NCBI GenBank assembly: GCA_020627535.1
Contig: JAHDGU010000002.1
Location: 186,001 to 250,000 of the forward strand
Reading direction: 5' to 3'
From: Saprospiraceae bacterium
GTDB taxonomy: Bacteria > Bacteroidota > Bacteroidia > Chitinophagales > Saprospiraceae
DNA length: 64,000 bases
Made by a program: the position numbers and the translations under genes. The stretch's first letter is position 1; each line of letters starts with the position of its first letter. Of this stretch, positions 9,707 through 20,353 are shown one piece after another. The notes under the pieces are model-generated. The model was not told where the DNA came from, did not search any database, and saw nothing but the letters and a program-made list of their open reading frames with translations.

Positions 9707-9767
9707 GATCTCATATGGATAAAATAGATCATATGATCTTTGCACAAAGATGAATGCATTGACAGAC

Positions 9768-12434
9768 ATGAAGATCCGCGTAGGCATACTCATGGGAGGA
9801 CCATCCAAGGAGAGAGAAATATCCTTTGCTGGGGGCCGCACTGTGTATGACAATCTGGACAAAGACATCTTTGAGCCGGTCCCAATCTTCATTGATGTTA
9901 ACTGTAGCCCTACATTGCTCGACTGGCAGTACGTCTACAAGGGAAGCATCCGAGACTTTTATCCTCCAGTTTCTCAGCTACCGATCAAACGCTATAGATA
10001 TCAGATCTATGAAGACTCGATCGATGCTCCACCATCAGCGGGTCTTGCAAGTCATGTAGGCACACCGCTGCAATGGAATCAGCTCATACAACATGTAGAT
10101 ATTGCATATCTCGCACTCCATGGACTGTGGGGCGAAGATGGGAAGGTCCAAGCTCTTCTTGAGCACCATGGACTACCCTATACTGGCTGTGGAGTCAGGG
10201 CATCTGCTATCGGTATTGACAAGCGTATCCAGAAACTACTCATGTCTCAAGCTGGCTGGGACTGCCCAGCAGTAAAATTCATGAGTAGAGCACAACTAGA
10301 CAGTACTGATTGGACCGAGTATCTTCAGGAGCTCAAGGCTACTCCAGGATTGCCACTAGTGATCAGACCCGCGACGCAAGGCTCATCACTTGGTGTGACC
10401 ATCATCAATGACCAAAGCAGCCCAGATGAGCTTCGCGATGCTTGTGAATTGGCATTTTTCCGCCAGAGACTATCTATGAGTGTCTGGTCAGGATGGGATC
10501 TTGAGGAACGGCAGAATTATCTGCAAAATCTCACAGACGTCCGTGTCGGCGTAGGAATGCCCATCCTAGCCAATGGTCATTTGATCTATCACCCTAGCGA
10601 TCTGCATGAGTGGCTCGATGACTGTGAGGAGCAAGAGGTCATATTAGAAAATCTCAATGACGAAGAATGGATTCTACTTGAAGAGTTCGTGGATGGTATC
10701 GAGTTTTCGAGTATCGTCATCACAGATCTCCATGGTCAGGCTGTCTGCCTCCCACCTACAGAAATCGTCAAAGACGACGAAGTCTTTGATTACAGATCCA
10801 AGTACTTGCCGGGTATGGCGCGAAAGAGGACGCCAATCGAACTAGACCAACAGTCTATCACCAATATACAAAAGACATGCTGTCGACTCTTCGAGTTTTT
10901 GGGCTTTGAGGTGTATGCTCGGATCGACGGATTCATCAAGTCAGACGGTACGATCTATCTGAACGATCCCAATACCACCTCAGGGATGCTACCGAGCTCG
11001 TTCTTCTTCCATCAGGCGGCAGAAATCGGCTTGAGCCCCAAAGAATTTATCACCTACATTTTGCACAGCTCGCTGCGTGCAAGATGTCAGAGCCGTCCTT
11101 CACTCCTACAGTGGTCTGGGCTGCTAGAGTCATTAGAATCTGCACTACTCACTAAGTCGGCGATGACCCACCAAAAAACAAAGATTGCCGTAATATTTGG
11201 TGGATTTAGCTCTGAGCGTCACATCAGTCTAGAATCCGGACGCAACATCTACGAAAAACTAGCAAGTAGCCAAGACTATCTGCCCATACCCATCCTACTC
11301 AGTGGCTCAAGTGAGCAGCATACATTACATGTCTTGCCTATCCGCATGATGCTCAAGGATAATGTCGACGATATCGTAGTGTGCATTGACAAGAAAGAGA
11401 TGCATCCTACCGCAGCAGATCTGGTGCACCAGCTCGGAGATTTACTAGATACTTTCAAGACGGATGAGCTAGGCGCTTTCGCGCAAATGATTAGCTATCA
11501 TGAGTTATCAGAGATGGTGGACTTTGCCTTTATTGCTCTCCATGGCAGACCAGGCGAGGATGGAGCCATACAGCAGGAACTCGAAGCCGTAGACCTGCCA
11601 TACAACGGATCTGGAGTTTCTAGTAGTCGCACCACCATCAATAAGTATAGCACCCTTGAAATCCTCAGATCGCATGGATTCACGACTGCGGACCAGCTCT
11701 TGATAGAGGCAGAATCGTACATTTCAAATCGGCAGAATACCCTCAGAGATGTAGCAAAATCACATCATTATCCCCTCATAGCAAAGCCTGTAGATGACGG
11801 ATGTAGTAGCGCTGTGAAGAAAATTGATGATCAAGAGCAACTTCAGGATTACTTGACCCTGCTTTTTGGCGAAAGCCAAGATCCTACCATAGAAAGAGAT
11901 AAGCTAGGACTCTCTCACAATGAGGAGTTTCCTCGCAAAAATCAAGCCTTGATCGAATCACTTATCTCTGCTGGAGATGCTCAACAGTTCATGGAGATCA
12001 CCGTAGGAGTCCTCGGCGACCTTGAGACTGGTCAACTGCAAGTCCTAGAGCCCTCAGAAGCACTCTCTAGCGGAGACGTACTGTCCCTCGAAGAGAAGTT
12101 TCTTGCTGGAGAAGGACAAAACATTACTCCCGCGAGACTCGGTGCAAATCAGGATCAATACGCCATCATCGTCGACCAAATCAAAGCCGATATAGCAAGA
12201 GCAGCGACGATCCTCGAAGTATCTGGTTATGCGAGAATTGATGCCTTCGTGAAGGTCAGAGACAATCTAGAGACAGAAACAATCATCATAGAGGTCAATA
12301 GCCTCCCGGGTATGACGCCAGCCACCTGTATATTTCATCAGGCAGCTCTACGTTCCTTATCTCCTCTAGAGTTTATAGAGCACATCATCAATCTAGGCAT
12401 GCGCCGCCAAGATACAGTCCTTGCATCTGCATGA
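9768..12434 (+). CDS. ddl: Double-length D-alanine--D-alanine ligase (two fused Ddl modules)
   Basis: 888 residues; bacterial Ddl is normally ~300-370. Module 1 (residues 1-~450) has KEREISFAGG, HGLWGEDGKVQALLEHHGLP, an ATP-grasp core with VIRPATQGSSLGV, and the metal-site region LNDPNTTSGM. Module 2 starts at an in-frame Met (nt 11163) with KIAVIFGGFSSERHISLESG, then HGRPGEDGAIQQELEAVDLP, IAKPVDDGC and EVNSLPGM. Module 2 keeps the ATP-binding Lys (AKP) and Glu (EVN); module 1 has Arg (IRP) and Asp (DPN) there. The enzyme should make D-Ala-D-Ala for peptidoglycan; module 1 may be regulatory or differ in specificity (inference). An upstream ATG at 9750 is also possible. The gene overlaps the next by ATGA. 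Confidence 0.85.
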   Translation: MKIRVGILMGGPSKEREISFAGGRTVYDNLDKDIFEPVPIFIDVNCSPTLLDWQYVYKGSIRDFYPPVSQLPIKRYRYQIYEDSIDAPPSAGLASHVGTPLQWNQLIQHVDIAYLALHGLWGEDGKVQALLEHHGLPYTGCGVRASAIGIDKRIQKLLMSQAGWDCPAVKFMSRAQLDSTDWTEYLQELKATPGLPLVIRPATQGSSLGVTIINDQSSPDELRDACELAFFRQRLSMSVWSGWDLEERQNYLQNLTDVRVGVGMPILANGHLIYHPSDLHEWLDDCEEQEVILENLNDEEWILLEEFVDGIEFSSIVITDLHGQAVCLPPTEIVKDDEVFDYRSKYLPGMARKRTPIELDQQSITNIQKTCCRLFEFLGFEVYARIDGFIKSDGTIYLNDPNTTSGMLPSSFFFHQAAEIGLSPKEFITYILHSSLRARCQSRPSLLQWSGLLESLESALLTKSAMTHQKTKIAVIFGGFSSERHISLESGRNIYEKLASSQDYLPIPILLSGSSEQHTLHVLPIRMMLKDNVDDIVVCIDKKEMHPTAADLVHQLGDLLDTFKTDELGAFAQMISYHELSEMVDFAFIALHGRPGEDGAIQQELEAVDLPYNGSGVSSSRTTINKYSTLEILRSHGFTTADQLLIEAESYISNRQNTLRDVAKSHHYPLIAKPVDDGCSSAVKKIDDQEQLQDYLTLLFGESQDPTIERDKLGLSHNEEFPRKNQALIESLISAGDAQQFMEITVGVLGDLETGQLQVLEPSEALSSGDVLSLEEKFLAGEGQNITPARLGANQDQYAIIVDQIKADIARAATILEVSGYARIDAFVKVRDNLETETIIIEVNSLPGMTPATCIFHQAALRSLSPLEFIEHIINLGMRRQDTVLASA
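11864..11877 (+). repeat. 14-mer TTTTGGCGAAAGCC, copy 3
   Basis: Exact copy in ligase module 2. Here it is read in a different frame as Phe-Gly-Glu-Ser (LLFGESQD). The stem is extended to TTGGC-GAAA-GCCAA. Confidence 0.8.
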
Positions 12435-18010: not shown

Positions 18011-18043
18011 GATCAAGCTCAGCTCCAAGTCTATGAATCTCGT

Positions 18044-18721
18044 ATGTCAGCGCATACAGAAATAGAAGACCTAGGAAATCGCTCCGCAAAGACTGGGGTC
18101 TGTGCTCTCATAGGACTAGGCATACTCATCTTAGCAGGTATATTGGTTGCTGTCGTTTGCAGAGAGGTCGATGATGCCTTTCGCACGGTGGATGAGGCTC
18201 TGCAGGAGACTAAGACCAGCAGTACCGCTGAAACCAAAGATCTAAGAGACGCCCTAGAAGTCCTTAACGTAGATCCTTCCCTCCTCTCCGAGATAGATGC
18301 ACATTCTACTAGCCTGACAACTCTGGCAGATTCGATCCGCGAGCTCATCGTCATGGAGACTGGTGGCTGGGAAGTGACAGAATACGGGAAAAGACCATCA
18401 AATCCTAAGGACATGGCCGTATCGCATCGGATACTACTCACAGAAGGATACGGCGATCAACTTGAGCAACAATTCAAGAAGACCAGTGCCTTCTACCAGG
18501 AACAAATCAAACATTTTTCCCAAGATGAGGTAGTTATACCACTGCAGTTGTTCGCTGTACCAGCAGAATCAGAAAAAACTTGGGCAGAGTACTGTTTTGG
18601 TCATATGCCACTCCAGGCGATCCTACCGCTATTCAGCAAGATTGAAGCAGACGAGATCAGCAGCAAAAATCTGCTTTATAGAGCTATCATTGACCAGACG
18701 ACCTCATCACTGACAAAATAG
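18044..18721 (+). CDS. Membrane protein resembling the GldM/PorM N-terminal domain
   Basis: 225 residues. One transmembrane helix (about 17-38) is followed by a helical periplasmic part. Three stretches recall GldM, the inner-membrane motor subunit of gliding and type IX secretion: a helix then LIVMETGGWEV; a conserved-looking SHRILLTEGYGDQLEQQF; and KTWAEYCFGHMPLQAILPLF followed by a closing helix, where GldM has W...F...P..A....LS.LQ. Full GldM is ~520 residues with three further domains; here the protein ends after the first. It lies 33 nt after the amylase gene with no gld/por genes beside it. Assignment is from remembered family patterns and needs profile confirmation. Confidence 0.55.
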   Translation: MSAHTEIEDLGNRSAKTGVCALIGLGILILAGILVAVVCREVDDAFRTVDEALQETKTSSTAETKDLRDALEVLNVDPSLLSEIDAHSTSLTTLADSIRELIVMETGGWEVTEYGKRPSNPKDMAVSHRILLTEGYGDQLEQQFKKTSAFYQEQIKHFSQDEVVIPLQLFAVPAESEKTWAEYCFGHMPLQAILPLFSKIEADEISSKNLLYRAIIDQTTSSLTK

Positions 18722-18884
18722 CCTGTAGACATCCAAATCGGATGCCATGACGAAGGAGGAGTCGAATGATCGCGTGATATGTTGCGGATGCTTCTATCTC
18801 AGCAATATGCTCAGCTCAAACAGCTTCAACTAGGCAGGTATAGCTCGATCAACTTTTTCTCCGATATTTGGGTTCATTGAAACG

Positions 18885-19448
18885 ATGTCGCACGCCAAAA
18901 ATCCATATCGATCCTCTTCTGTTTTAATCAGTTTAGCCTCGATGGCATCAGTGCCTCTGAGATCCTTCGCTCTAGCTAAATGGATTGTAAGTCTTGTATT
19001 TTGCCTTGTGATGCTTGCTAGCTACGCACAGGGTCCATCAGTTCACCTAGAGGAGGAAATTCAAAGTGCTCCAAGAAGTCTTGACATTTTTCTCACCCAG
19101 ATGCCAACTCAAGAAAATGGTGACAAGCTGATGGGAATCATCGTGGACTCTTTGACGAGAAAGCCCATATTCGCCGCGTCTCTATCTGTTCCTCGTCTTG
19201 CGATCTCTACGAAATCAGACTTTGAAGGGAAGTTTCAATTGTCATCAGGGGATCTGAAAACATCAGACATGATGGAACTGAGCTCCGAGGGGTTCAATAG
19301 CAAGTCTTTGGCGATATCAAATGCCAAGAAAGCTGTGTATAGTCAGGCGCACTCTGCGACAGCATCAGAGGGTGACCATGACGCTGAAGAGAAAAAACTG
19401 AGCTTCGCGCCGCTAAGAGTCATCCGCAAATTGCTCGATACTCTTTAG
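18885..19448 (+). CDS. Exported protein with carboxypeptidase-like regulatory domain
   Basis: 187 residues. A long N-terminus is followed by a hydrophobic export segment (about residues 32-48, ending SYAQG). ATG codons at 18885 and 18942 are both possible. Residues ~85-145 read GIIVDSLTRKPIFAASLSV, then STKSDFEGKFQLS and ELSSEGFNSKSL. This is the beta-sandwich regulatory domain (CarboxypepD_reg-like) common at the start of TonB-linked receptors and on surface proteins. Nothing catalytic follows. Function unknown; possibly a partner for an outer-membrane protein. Confidence 0.6.
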   Translation: MSHAKNPYRSSSVLISLASMASVPLRSFALAKWIVSLVFCLVMLASYAQGPSVHLEEEIQSAPRSLDIFLTQMPTQENGDKLMGIIVDSLTRKPIFAASLSVPRLAISTKSDFEGKFQLSSGDLKTSDMMELSSEGFNSKSLAISNAKKAVYSQAHSATASEGDHDAEEKKLSFAPLRVIRKLLDTL

Positions 19449-19493
19449 TTTCGAGGTAATTTCAATAGCACCAGAGTCTTGTCATAATGCATC

Positions 19494-20084
19494 TTGTATG
19501 TAAAGCTTAATGATTTGCGATCTATTCTGATTCTTATGTCAATTCAGCTTGCTACAAGCTCGTGCTCAAATAAGCGAGAACTGAGATTTGGTGATATTGA
19601 CGATTTTAATGCACATAGAGTTTCTATAATCCAGCCGGATTCCTTTGCGGTATTTGGTGATTTAATTAGACATGTTGATGAATTAAGTTGTTTGGACAGC
19701 ATTCCTTCAATTTATCTTGAGACTAAAAAAGTCAATAAAACCATTGCTCTATCCAGTATCTGTTGGTTTGAGCATGGCTGTATTCTTATCAAACCGAGAA
19801 ACAGACTTTTGATCAGAGATGGTCAAGTTCAGTTAGGACGATCAATTGGCCTTGATTCATTGGATGAGGTCATGAGAGCACACTATTTAAACTATGGTGA
19901 ACTAGAACAATTCAGTGAGGATCCTAGAAAAGCACTGGTCTCAATCCAGTTTAGCGGACATGATTTCGGGAGTTTACAAGAGATAGTCGATAAGATAACA
20001 GATTCGTTTCTCAAATTGAAGCTTGATGTAGACTTGATTCTTACGTTGGAAGATTTAGATGGAAGTTCTGACGAATTGTACTGA
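19494..20084 (+). CDS. Putative lipoprotein of unknown function
   Basis: 196 residues if TTG 19494 is used; TTG 19515 or ATG 19536 are alternatives. The N-terminus RSILILMSIQLATSSCSNKR looks like a lipoprotein signal with a TSSC lipobox. The rest is a mixed alpha/beta domain without motifs I recognise: repeated charged stretches, LLIRDGQVQLGRSIGLDSLD, and an acidic end. The coding sequence is visibly richer in A+T than its neighbours, which may mean acquisition by transfer. No close partner is evident. Confidence 0.5.
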   Translation: MYVKLNDLRSILILMSIQLATSSCSNKRELRFGDIDDFNAHRVSIIQPDSFAVFGDLIRHVDELSCLDSIPSIYLETKKVNKTIALSSICWFEHGCILIKPRNRLLIRDGQVQLGRSIGLDSLDEVMRAHYLNYGELEQFSEDPRKALVSIQFSGHDFGSLQEIVDKITDSFLKLKLDVDLILTLEDLDGSSDELY

Positions 20085-20240
20085 ATGATATGACTTGAGG
20101 GAAAACTACAAGTATCAAGGTATAGGACGACAGTCCTTCTGAGCGACTTTTGACTTGCGACTTTAGAGAACAAAGAACCACTTTCGGTTAACCAATTAGC
20201 GGACCAGCGCCTTGTCGCTCATCGTCCCTCTCCCATCCTA

Positions 20241-20253
20241 GTTACACTGTAAC
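20241..20253. promoter_or_regulatory. Palindrome GTTACA-C-TGTAAC upstream of surface amylase
   Basis: Perfect 6-bp arms around one central base, about 100 bp before the amylase start. The adjoining TAACACT is the reverse complement of AGTGTTA, found inside the inverted repeat before pgmB. Candidate operator. Confidence 0.35.
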
Positions 20254-20315
20254 ACTTAGGTCTTGGCGCTGTCAAATTCTGAGAGAGATCCGCGTGAAAA
20301 GCTGAATTTTGCTAT

Positions 20316-20338
20316 ATTAGTGTCACAATGACACTAAT
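20316..20338 (+). promoter_or_regulatory. Candidate operator: 10-bp inverted repeat before surface amylase
   Basis: ATTAGTGTCA (20316-20325) and TGACACTAAT (20329-20338) are perfect reverse complements separated by CAA. The element ends 15 nt before the ATG. Its position over the expected transcription start suggests repressor binding, or alternatively a 5'-UTR hairpin. Confidence 0.5.
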
Positions 20339-20353
20339 GTCATCATTTTGAGT

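Follow-up and report, generated by a model that had tools for sequence, protein, structure and literature searches.

The window analyzed here, a 64,000-nucleotide stretch of a Saprospiraceae genome, contains a gene for a short membrane protein related to the first periplasmic domain (D1) of GldM (Table 1). An alpha-amylase gene ends 33 nt upstream of its start codon and itself comes after a GH65 gene and a gene for a HAD hydrolase that we take to be beta-phosphoglucomutase-like. This arrangement agrees with a first-pass annotation of the window, which had placed the gene after a maltose operon rather than among gld genes. With orf187 and orf196, the gene makes up a three-gene block. In a congener (G001), two amylase genes lie side by side without the block at that place. 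The orf196 product had no Pfam match up to an E-value of 0.1, and a search of 247 other family genomes returned homologs from 3. Because orf196 is so rare in the family, acquisition of the block in the window genome appears more likely, though not proven, than its loss from the congener. A mobile element was considered and rejected: a repeat search gave only short two-copy matches and there was no Rfam match. Promoter-like sites lie about 1 SD above shuffled sequences, and terminator-like sites occur at expectation. Elsewhere in the window (9750-12434), a single 894-aa ORF comprises two tandem D-Ala-D-Ala ligase-like halves, with the Pfam N and C domains matched repeatedly.

Table 1. Features of the stand-alone D1 gene, its block, and the single-chain fusions found at other loci
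Feature	Location	Strand	Remarks
Block: stand-alone D1 gene + orf187 + orf196	18011..20347	+	2.3 kb, between amylase genes
Stand-alone GldM D1 protein gene	18044..18721	+	225 aa, stop included in span
Presumed transmembrane hydrophobic helix	18095..18163	+	approximately residues 18-40, by eye; helical in both models
α1, membrane-proximal half	18164..18211	+	residues 41-56; helix of D1 dimerization in GldM; on average 38% identical to 69 GldMs
GG turn/beta hairpin through GDQL block	18362..18463	+	residues 107-140
D1 C-terminal signature KTWAEYCFGHMPLQAILPLFSK	18578..18643	+	residues 179-200; on average 52% identical to 69 GldMs
orf187	18885..19448	+	by eye, probably secreted; CarboxypepD_reg-like match is weak and under the cut-off
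orf196	19494..20084	+	lipoprotein-like (by eye); low GC
GldL_N x2 + GldM D1 fusion	L093:2602-3858	-	Pfam
GldL_N x2 + GldM D1 fusion	L094:5344-6600	-	Pfam
GldL_N x2 + GldM D1 fusion	L088:3931-4977	+	Pfam
GldL_N x2 + GldM D1 fusion	L089:5593-6639	-	Pfam

The ORF is bounded by an ATG at 18044 and a TAG at 18719-18721 on the plus strand, and its frame scores best by codon usage, with a modest margin (0.199 versus at most 0.143 in the other five frames). Residues 44-203 match the Pfam profile GldM_1st (PF12081) with an E-value of 6.3e-10 and 39.8 bits, against a curated gathering cut-off of 25 bits, so that the GldM_N profile search proposed in the first-pass annotation returns a significant match. 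The protein also matches the GldM structure 7sax (E = 5e-5, phmmer against the PDB). Searches up to E = 10 with the profiles for the second, third, and fourth domains (GldM_2nd, GldM_3rd, and GldM_4th; PF21601, PF21602, and PF12080) gave no match in the protein, bearing out the earlier statement that the three later domains are lacking; the full-length GldM of the same genome matches all four. The score against TIGR03517, the NCBIfam equivalog for full-length GldM, is 27.8 bits, below its cut-off of 180.

In an alignment of 11 D1 rows (the window protein, its ortholog, and the D1 domains of nine full-length GldMs), the GG pair, the G..L of GDQL, and the pattern W....F..MP..A.LP...K...D show no variation across the rows; the motifs originally noted as recalling GldM fall on these columns. 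Seventeen of the 22 D1 columns conserved in GldMs are kept by the window protein, and 17 are kept by the ortholog. By both profile score and D1 fold, the protein is a member of the GldM_1st domain family, and its identity as a D1-only relative of GldM is well supported. A sequencing or assembly artefact or a broken gldM is out for this gene, as its ORF and that of its ortholog are intact; the contig ends lie approximately 204 kb and 253 kb away, and no D2-D4 match follows inside the ORF. Matches to phage or defence families are at noise level (PHROG, E = 0.074; PADLOC ZorA, E = 0.021).

An AlphaFold2 model of the window protein, built from an alignment of the protein with 70 relatives (1 ortholog and 69 GldM D1 regions), has a D1 fold with a mean pLDDT of 93.2 and a pTM of 0.81. 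A Foldseek search with this model returned GldM or PorM at ranks 1-18, six of them at E ≤ 0.001. The VIA structural aligner placed GldM/PorM at ranks 1-9 with Z scores of 14.3-19.9, followed by an unrelated entry at 8.9. Because the input alignment was made of GldMs, we ran a second prediction without GldM sequences, using the window protein and its ortholog only. The best of these models has a pLDDT of 76.9 (the others 69.6, 57.0, 45.3, and 38.4) and near-identical secondary structure, and its first 16 matches are GldM/PorM, four at E ≤ 0.001. Both predictions, the GldM-free one being the weaker, give the GldM D1 fold, in line with the helical bundle anticipated in the first-pass annotation.

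That annotation had also described a 225-residue membrane protein with one N-terminal helix, and we find the ORF as stated, with a single N-terminal hydrophobic segment (by eye) followed by a conserved Glu, E41. This residue is equivalent to E31 of the F. johnsoniae protein (PMC8986121), and we compared the helices without gaps by counting back from it. Of the 22 helix residues that 85% or more of 69 GldMs share (motif PRQxMxNxMYLVLTALLALNVS), the window protein keeps 5 and the ortholog 6. The six polar ones (R -22, N -17, Y -14, T -10, N -4, and S -2) are lost from both proteins (0/6 each), and Ile stands at the position of GldM Tyr17 in the window protein. The Y17A mutation in the GldM transmembrane helix (TMH) lowers secretion, according to the review PMC9127263. 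Section 8 of PMC8986121 states that GldL-GldM binding requires the TMHs, the soluble parts alone being insufficient, and that the GldM TMH homodimerises. Since GldM contacts GldL through this helix and the motif is lost here, direct insertion into the GldL ring looks unlikely. The protein thus looks uncoupled from GldL; if it acts on the motor at all, it probably does so by way of its D1 in the periplasm.

Compared with GldMs, the window protein is best kept in the membrane-proximal half of helix α1 (38% identity) and in the C-terminal signature (52%), with 10-29% elsewhere; the 17-residue N-tail, where the gapped alignment is unreliable, was left out of this comparison. Helix α1 packs D1 dimers together (PMC5790014). 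Among GldMs themselves, the two stretches are 51% and 65% identical. Because the same stretches are conserved among GldMs, their conservation in the window protein shows descent and fold, not GldM binding. The conservation alignment holds 69 of 79 GldM loci: the start pattern was missed in L106, L169, and L170, L126 was short (232 aa), and L142, L152, L153, L165, L167, and L175 were removed by thinning by hit table.

A search for a full gldM elsewhere in the genome, suggested at the outset, located the operon copy on contig C8, where GldM (532 aa, all four domains matched) is encoded together with GldL (GldL_N), GldN, and a GldK-like FGE-sulfatase-domain protein. The gene for the GldK-like protein is presumably gldK, and a PorP/SprF-like gene, assigned by reading, also lies on this contig. 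As a normal gldK-L-M-N set is present, the window gene is an extra and not a replacement.

Among 398 family genomes, the own genome included, a search with the protein identified one ortholog (L096/L040), a 238-aa open frame with 35% identity (E = 2.3e-34) in Saprospiraceae MAG-94 (genome G394, JAHDIN010000009.1); the next match in this search is a full GldM (E = 9.4e-19). A reverse search of 395 class genomes with the ortholog returned the window gene as the best match, and an alignment scan found L096 to be the sole stand-alone protein among the best 80 of 141 confirmed loci. No close relative emerged from a single-protein scan of the genome contigs, and no stand-alone match is present in the other genome of the genus examined, which is 94% complete; the gene is therefore dispensable. 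No neighbors are shared with the ortholog within the 8.7 kb compared at the latter. These protein searches set aside short frames in G257, G361, G359, G370, G398, and G419 and, in the reverse search, rows below 450 aa in G742, G517, G521, G592, G603, G510, and G757, of which G510 was examined through the GldM_1st survey.

That survey, carried out on 105 family genomes, identified four with a D1 protein lacking the full domain set (G000, which is the own genome, G074, G122, and G022, the last with D1-D2), after removal of one contig-edge fragment. Among 129 class genomes, at least six besides the own genome carry such proteins (G425, G476, G508, G510, G512, and G543); split and edge frames were removed first, and the class counts are lower bounds that cover the matches listed, with short frames in G517 and G521 left out. 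GldM_1st matches of any kind occur in all but 2 of the 105 family genomes (103) and all but 5 of the 129 class genomes (124). Together with further ones from other searches, 16 D1 proteins lacking the full shaft were examined, and none of them has the GldM helix motif pattern, which is present in 78 of 79 full GldMs. Many surveyed genomes have at least two full-length GldM genes, seemingly in two length classes of approximately 505-535 and 540-565 aa.

Judged by eye, these proteins differ in how they are anchored. Single-TM anchors are seen in the window protein, L096, L042, L069, L091, L202, and L203, lipoprotein-type signals in L041 and L085, and secretion signals in L084 and L092, while L045 carries D1 at the C-terminal end of a secreted protein after an unrelated domain. 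We assembled a comparison group of ten (L041, L042, L045, L069, L084, L085, L091, L092, L202, and L203). All ten score above the GldM_1st cut-off, none has the GldM helix motif, and nine have the C-terminal signature pattern, with V for F in L092; the exception, L085, carries D2 besides D1. Several candidates were dropped: L090, in which gldM is divided between two frames; L087, which has the complete helix motif and a frame ending just after D1; the contig-edge fragments L086, L095, L068/L053, L070, L043, L038, and L044; and L046 (E = 0.0013), whose match had the look of chance on inspection. The split gldM (L090:5038-6581, minus strand, in G476) reflects a sequencing error or a broken gene.

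Four further proteins (L088, L089, L093, and L094), from two genera of different families, join two GldL_N segments and GldM_1st in a single chain without D2-D4. These fusions indicate that D1 and GldL-type membrane parts can combine without D2-D4, and the window protein could by analogy belong to a minimal motor, as its inner subunit, alongside a GldL-like protein that has diverged. We regard this as highly improbable, given that none of the seven scanned neighbors of the gene matches GldL_N and that all six polar helix positions are lost.

The diversity of anchors (TM helix, lipoprotein signal, secretion signal, attachment to the end of an unrelated domain, and two preceding GldL_N segments) speaks for another explanation, the main rival to the one that we prefer: D1 may be an independent periplasmic dimer or scaffold module that was diverted from its motor function, with another envelope partner and no present link to type IX secretion. 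This is a real possibility, if a doubtful one. It fits the absence of gld genes next to the window copy and of neighbors common to the ortholog in the stretch compared. Against it, a full-length gldM is present in 7 of the 10 genomes behind the ten stand-alone rows of the clade test described below (G000, G394, G074, G056, G122, G022, and G512; the three not established are G270, G476, and G610), so the ancestral partner is usually at hand. This counterargument is weak because nearly every surveyed genome has a GldM_1st match.

Phylogenetic trees pair the window protein with its ortholog three times (support 100/99, 99/99, and, in a smaller tree, 96/79). The branch that places this pair among family GldMs is weak (83/79 and 83/84; 80/53; 30/40 across trees), so derivation of the window gene from a Saprospiraceae gldM is likely but not proven. 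In the D1-only tree, the G022 D1-D2 lipoprotein pairs with the GldM of its own genome (100/95), as does the G056 stand-alone protein (99/94). A topology that forces ten stand-alone rows into a single clade is rejected (AU p = 6.25e-7), and so is one that groups the window pair with G022 and G056 (AU p = 4.5e-4); the AU test rows exclude L202 and L203, and the groups were named after the trees had been seen. Some placements are unstable: SA_G074 moves from SA_G270 in the D1-only tree (98/93) to the window pair in the smaller tree (81/91), and several stand-alone rows are long branches. There is good evidence, from these trees, that stand-alone D1s were born several times separately from resident gldM genes; it is not final in view of the long branches, the moving G074 row, and the naming of groups after the trees.

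One genomic setting recurs in two families: a D1 gene lies just upstream of what we take to be an exonuclease III gene both in G074 (L041) and in genus g56 (L042, L202, and L203). G074 and genus g56 may or may not be one lineage (AU p = 0.32). In three of the five g56 genomes seen (G056, G848, and G862), the D1 gene stands between response-regulator and exonuclease III genes; in the other two (G817 and G857), only full-length frames are found among the matches listed. Short frames in G859, G862:C46, G895, and G899 were outside the examination for this genus search. Two such D1-like frames, G859:C24:314894-315490 (206 aa, one TAG) and G895:C265:7199-7480 (223 aa), are possibly stand-alone or decaying.

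The G056 copy is 35-38% identical to the other two g56 copies, and two neighboring genes are 83% and 95% identical. Between G862 and G848, the dN/dS of the stand-alone gene is 0.21 (NG86) or 0.225 (YN00). The corresponding values for its neighbors are 0.023 and 0.018 (NG86), approximately 10-fold lower, with dS of the exonuclease gene saturated. At least one stand-alone D1 gene, that of genus g56, is therefore under purifying selection, weaker than that on its neighbors.

These values bear on whether the window gene is a dying gldM duplicate, truncated and still open, with no role. A single ortholog, absence from the congener, the modest coding score, and long tree branches could all be read in this way. 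We nevertheless find this reading distinctly unlikely. Two genera carry an intact ORF, the products being 35% identical; each retains 17 of the 22 conserved D1 columns and has the helix replaced. In addition, the analogous g56 gene keeps both its low dN/dS between two species and its place in three genomes. Because g56 is another lineage, its dN/dS supports the kind of gene and not the window copy.

The first-pass annotation had suggested that a stand-alone version could cap, inhibit, or modify the type IX motor. On present evidence we lean, tentatively and with less than even confidence, toward a role in which the window protein, itself uncoupled from the motor, would partner the D1 of GldM and so tune the type IX motor. 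Anchored in the inner membrane with its D1 in the periplasm, the protein would use helix α1 to pair with GldM's D1 or, next to the motor, with another copy of itself. It would probably receive no proton-driven torque from GldL and would have no shaft with which to reach the GldK/N ring. With torque probably unavailable and the shaft absent, such pairing could idle or tune some GldLM motors, and the outcome would be to brake or buffer both type IX secretion and gliding. Several observations count against this role. The gene is not near gld genes, has no neighbor in common with its ortholog in the 8.7 kb compared, and is missing from the congener. The GldM TMH homodimerises and its motif is lost here, so pairing may be weakened. 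Other D1-only proteins look lipoprotein-like or secreted, and pairing with an inner-membrane GldM fits these less well. Finally, in g56 the stand-alone gene has a dN/dS about 10 times that of its neighbors, which does not look like that of a tightly constrained role.

A broader reading of the motor-tuning proposal is that Bacteroidota repeatedly excise D1 from their own gldM, leave behind the shaft and the helix that couples to GldL, and put the domain on a new anchor as a motor brake, clutch, or buffer, the window gene being one of these recurrent uncoupled GldM decoys. We consider this generalization rather unlikely as it stands. A GldM size survey (PMC9389320) describes one narrow length peak, and its section 8 mentions no short forms. 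We found no report of stand-alone D1 proteins among the papers listed in a search by title or abstract start, with most subscription papers outside its reach. If D1-only proteins are motor regulators, they would offer a natural handle on how GldLM is switched or limited and on the binding partner of D1. If they are not, their existence still suggests that D1 can stand by itself in the periplasm and be investigated apart from the motor.

The closest known system is the GldM/PorM motor protein, which assembles with GldL into a 5:2 complex that powers secretion. Like GldM/PorM (TIGR03517; PF12081 + PF21601 + PF21602 + PF12080), the window protein has the D1 signature and fold and a single N-terminal hydrophobic helix followed by a conserved Glu. 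Unlike GldM/PorM, it ends at residue 225 without the D2, D3, and D4 periplasmic shaft, lacks the conserved helix motif, falls below the TIGR03517 cut-off, and is encoded between amylase genes and not in a gldKLMN operon. The MAG-94 protein resembles it in length and architecture and is its best match both ways, whereas the genomic neighborhoods differ in the stretch compared. Members of the ten-protein group have the same D1 without the helix motif but differ in their anchors and, with L202 and L203 set aside, do not form one clade with the window pair. The fusions of two GldL_N segments with GldM_1st likewise carry D1 without D2-D4, but on GldL-type membrane anchors.
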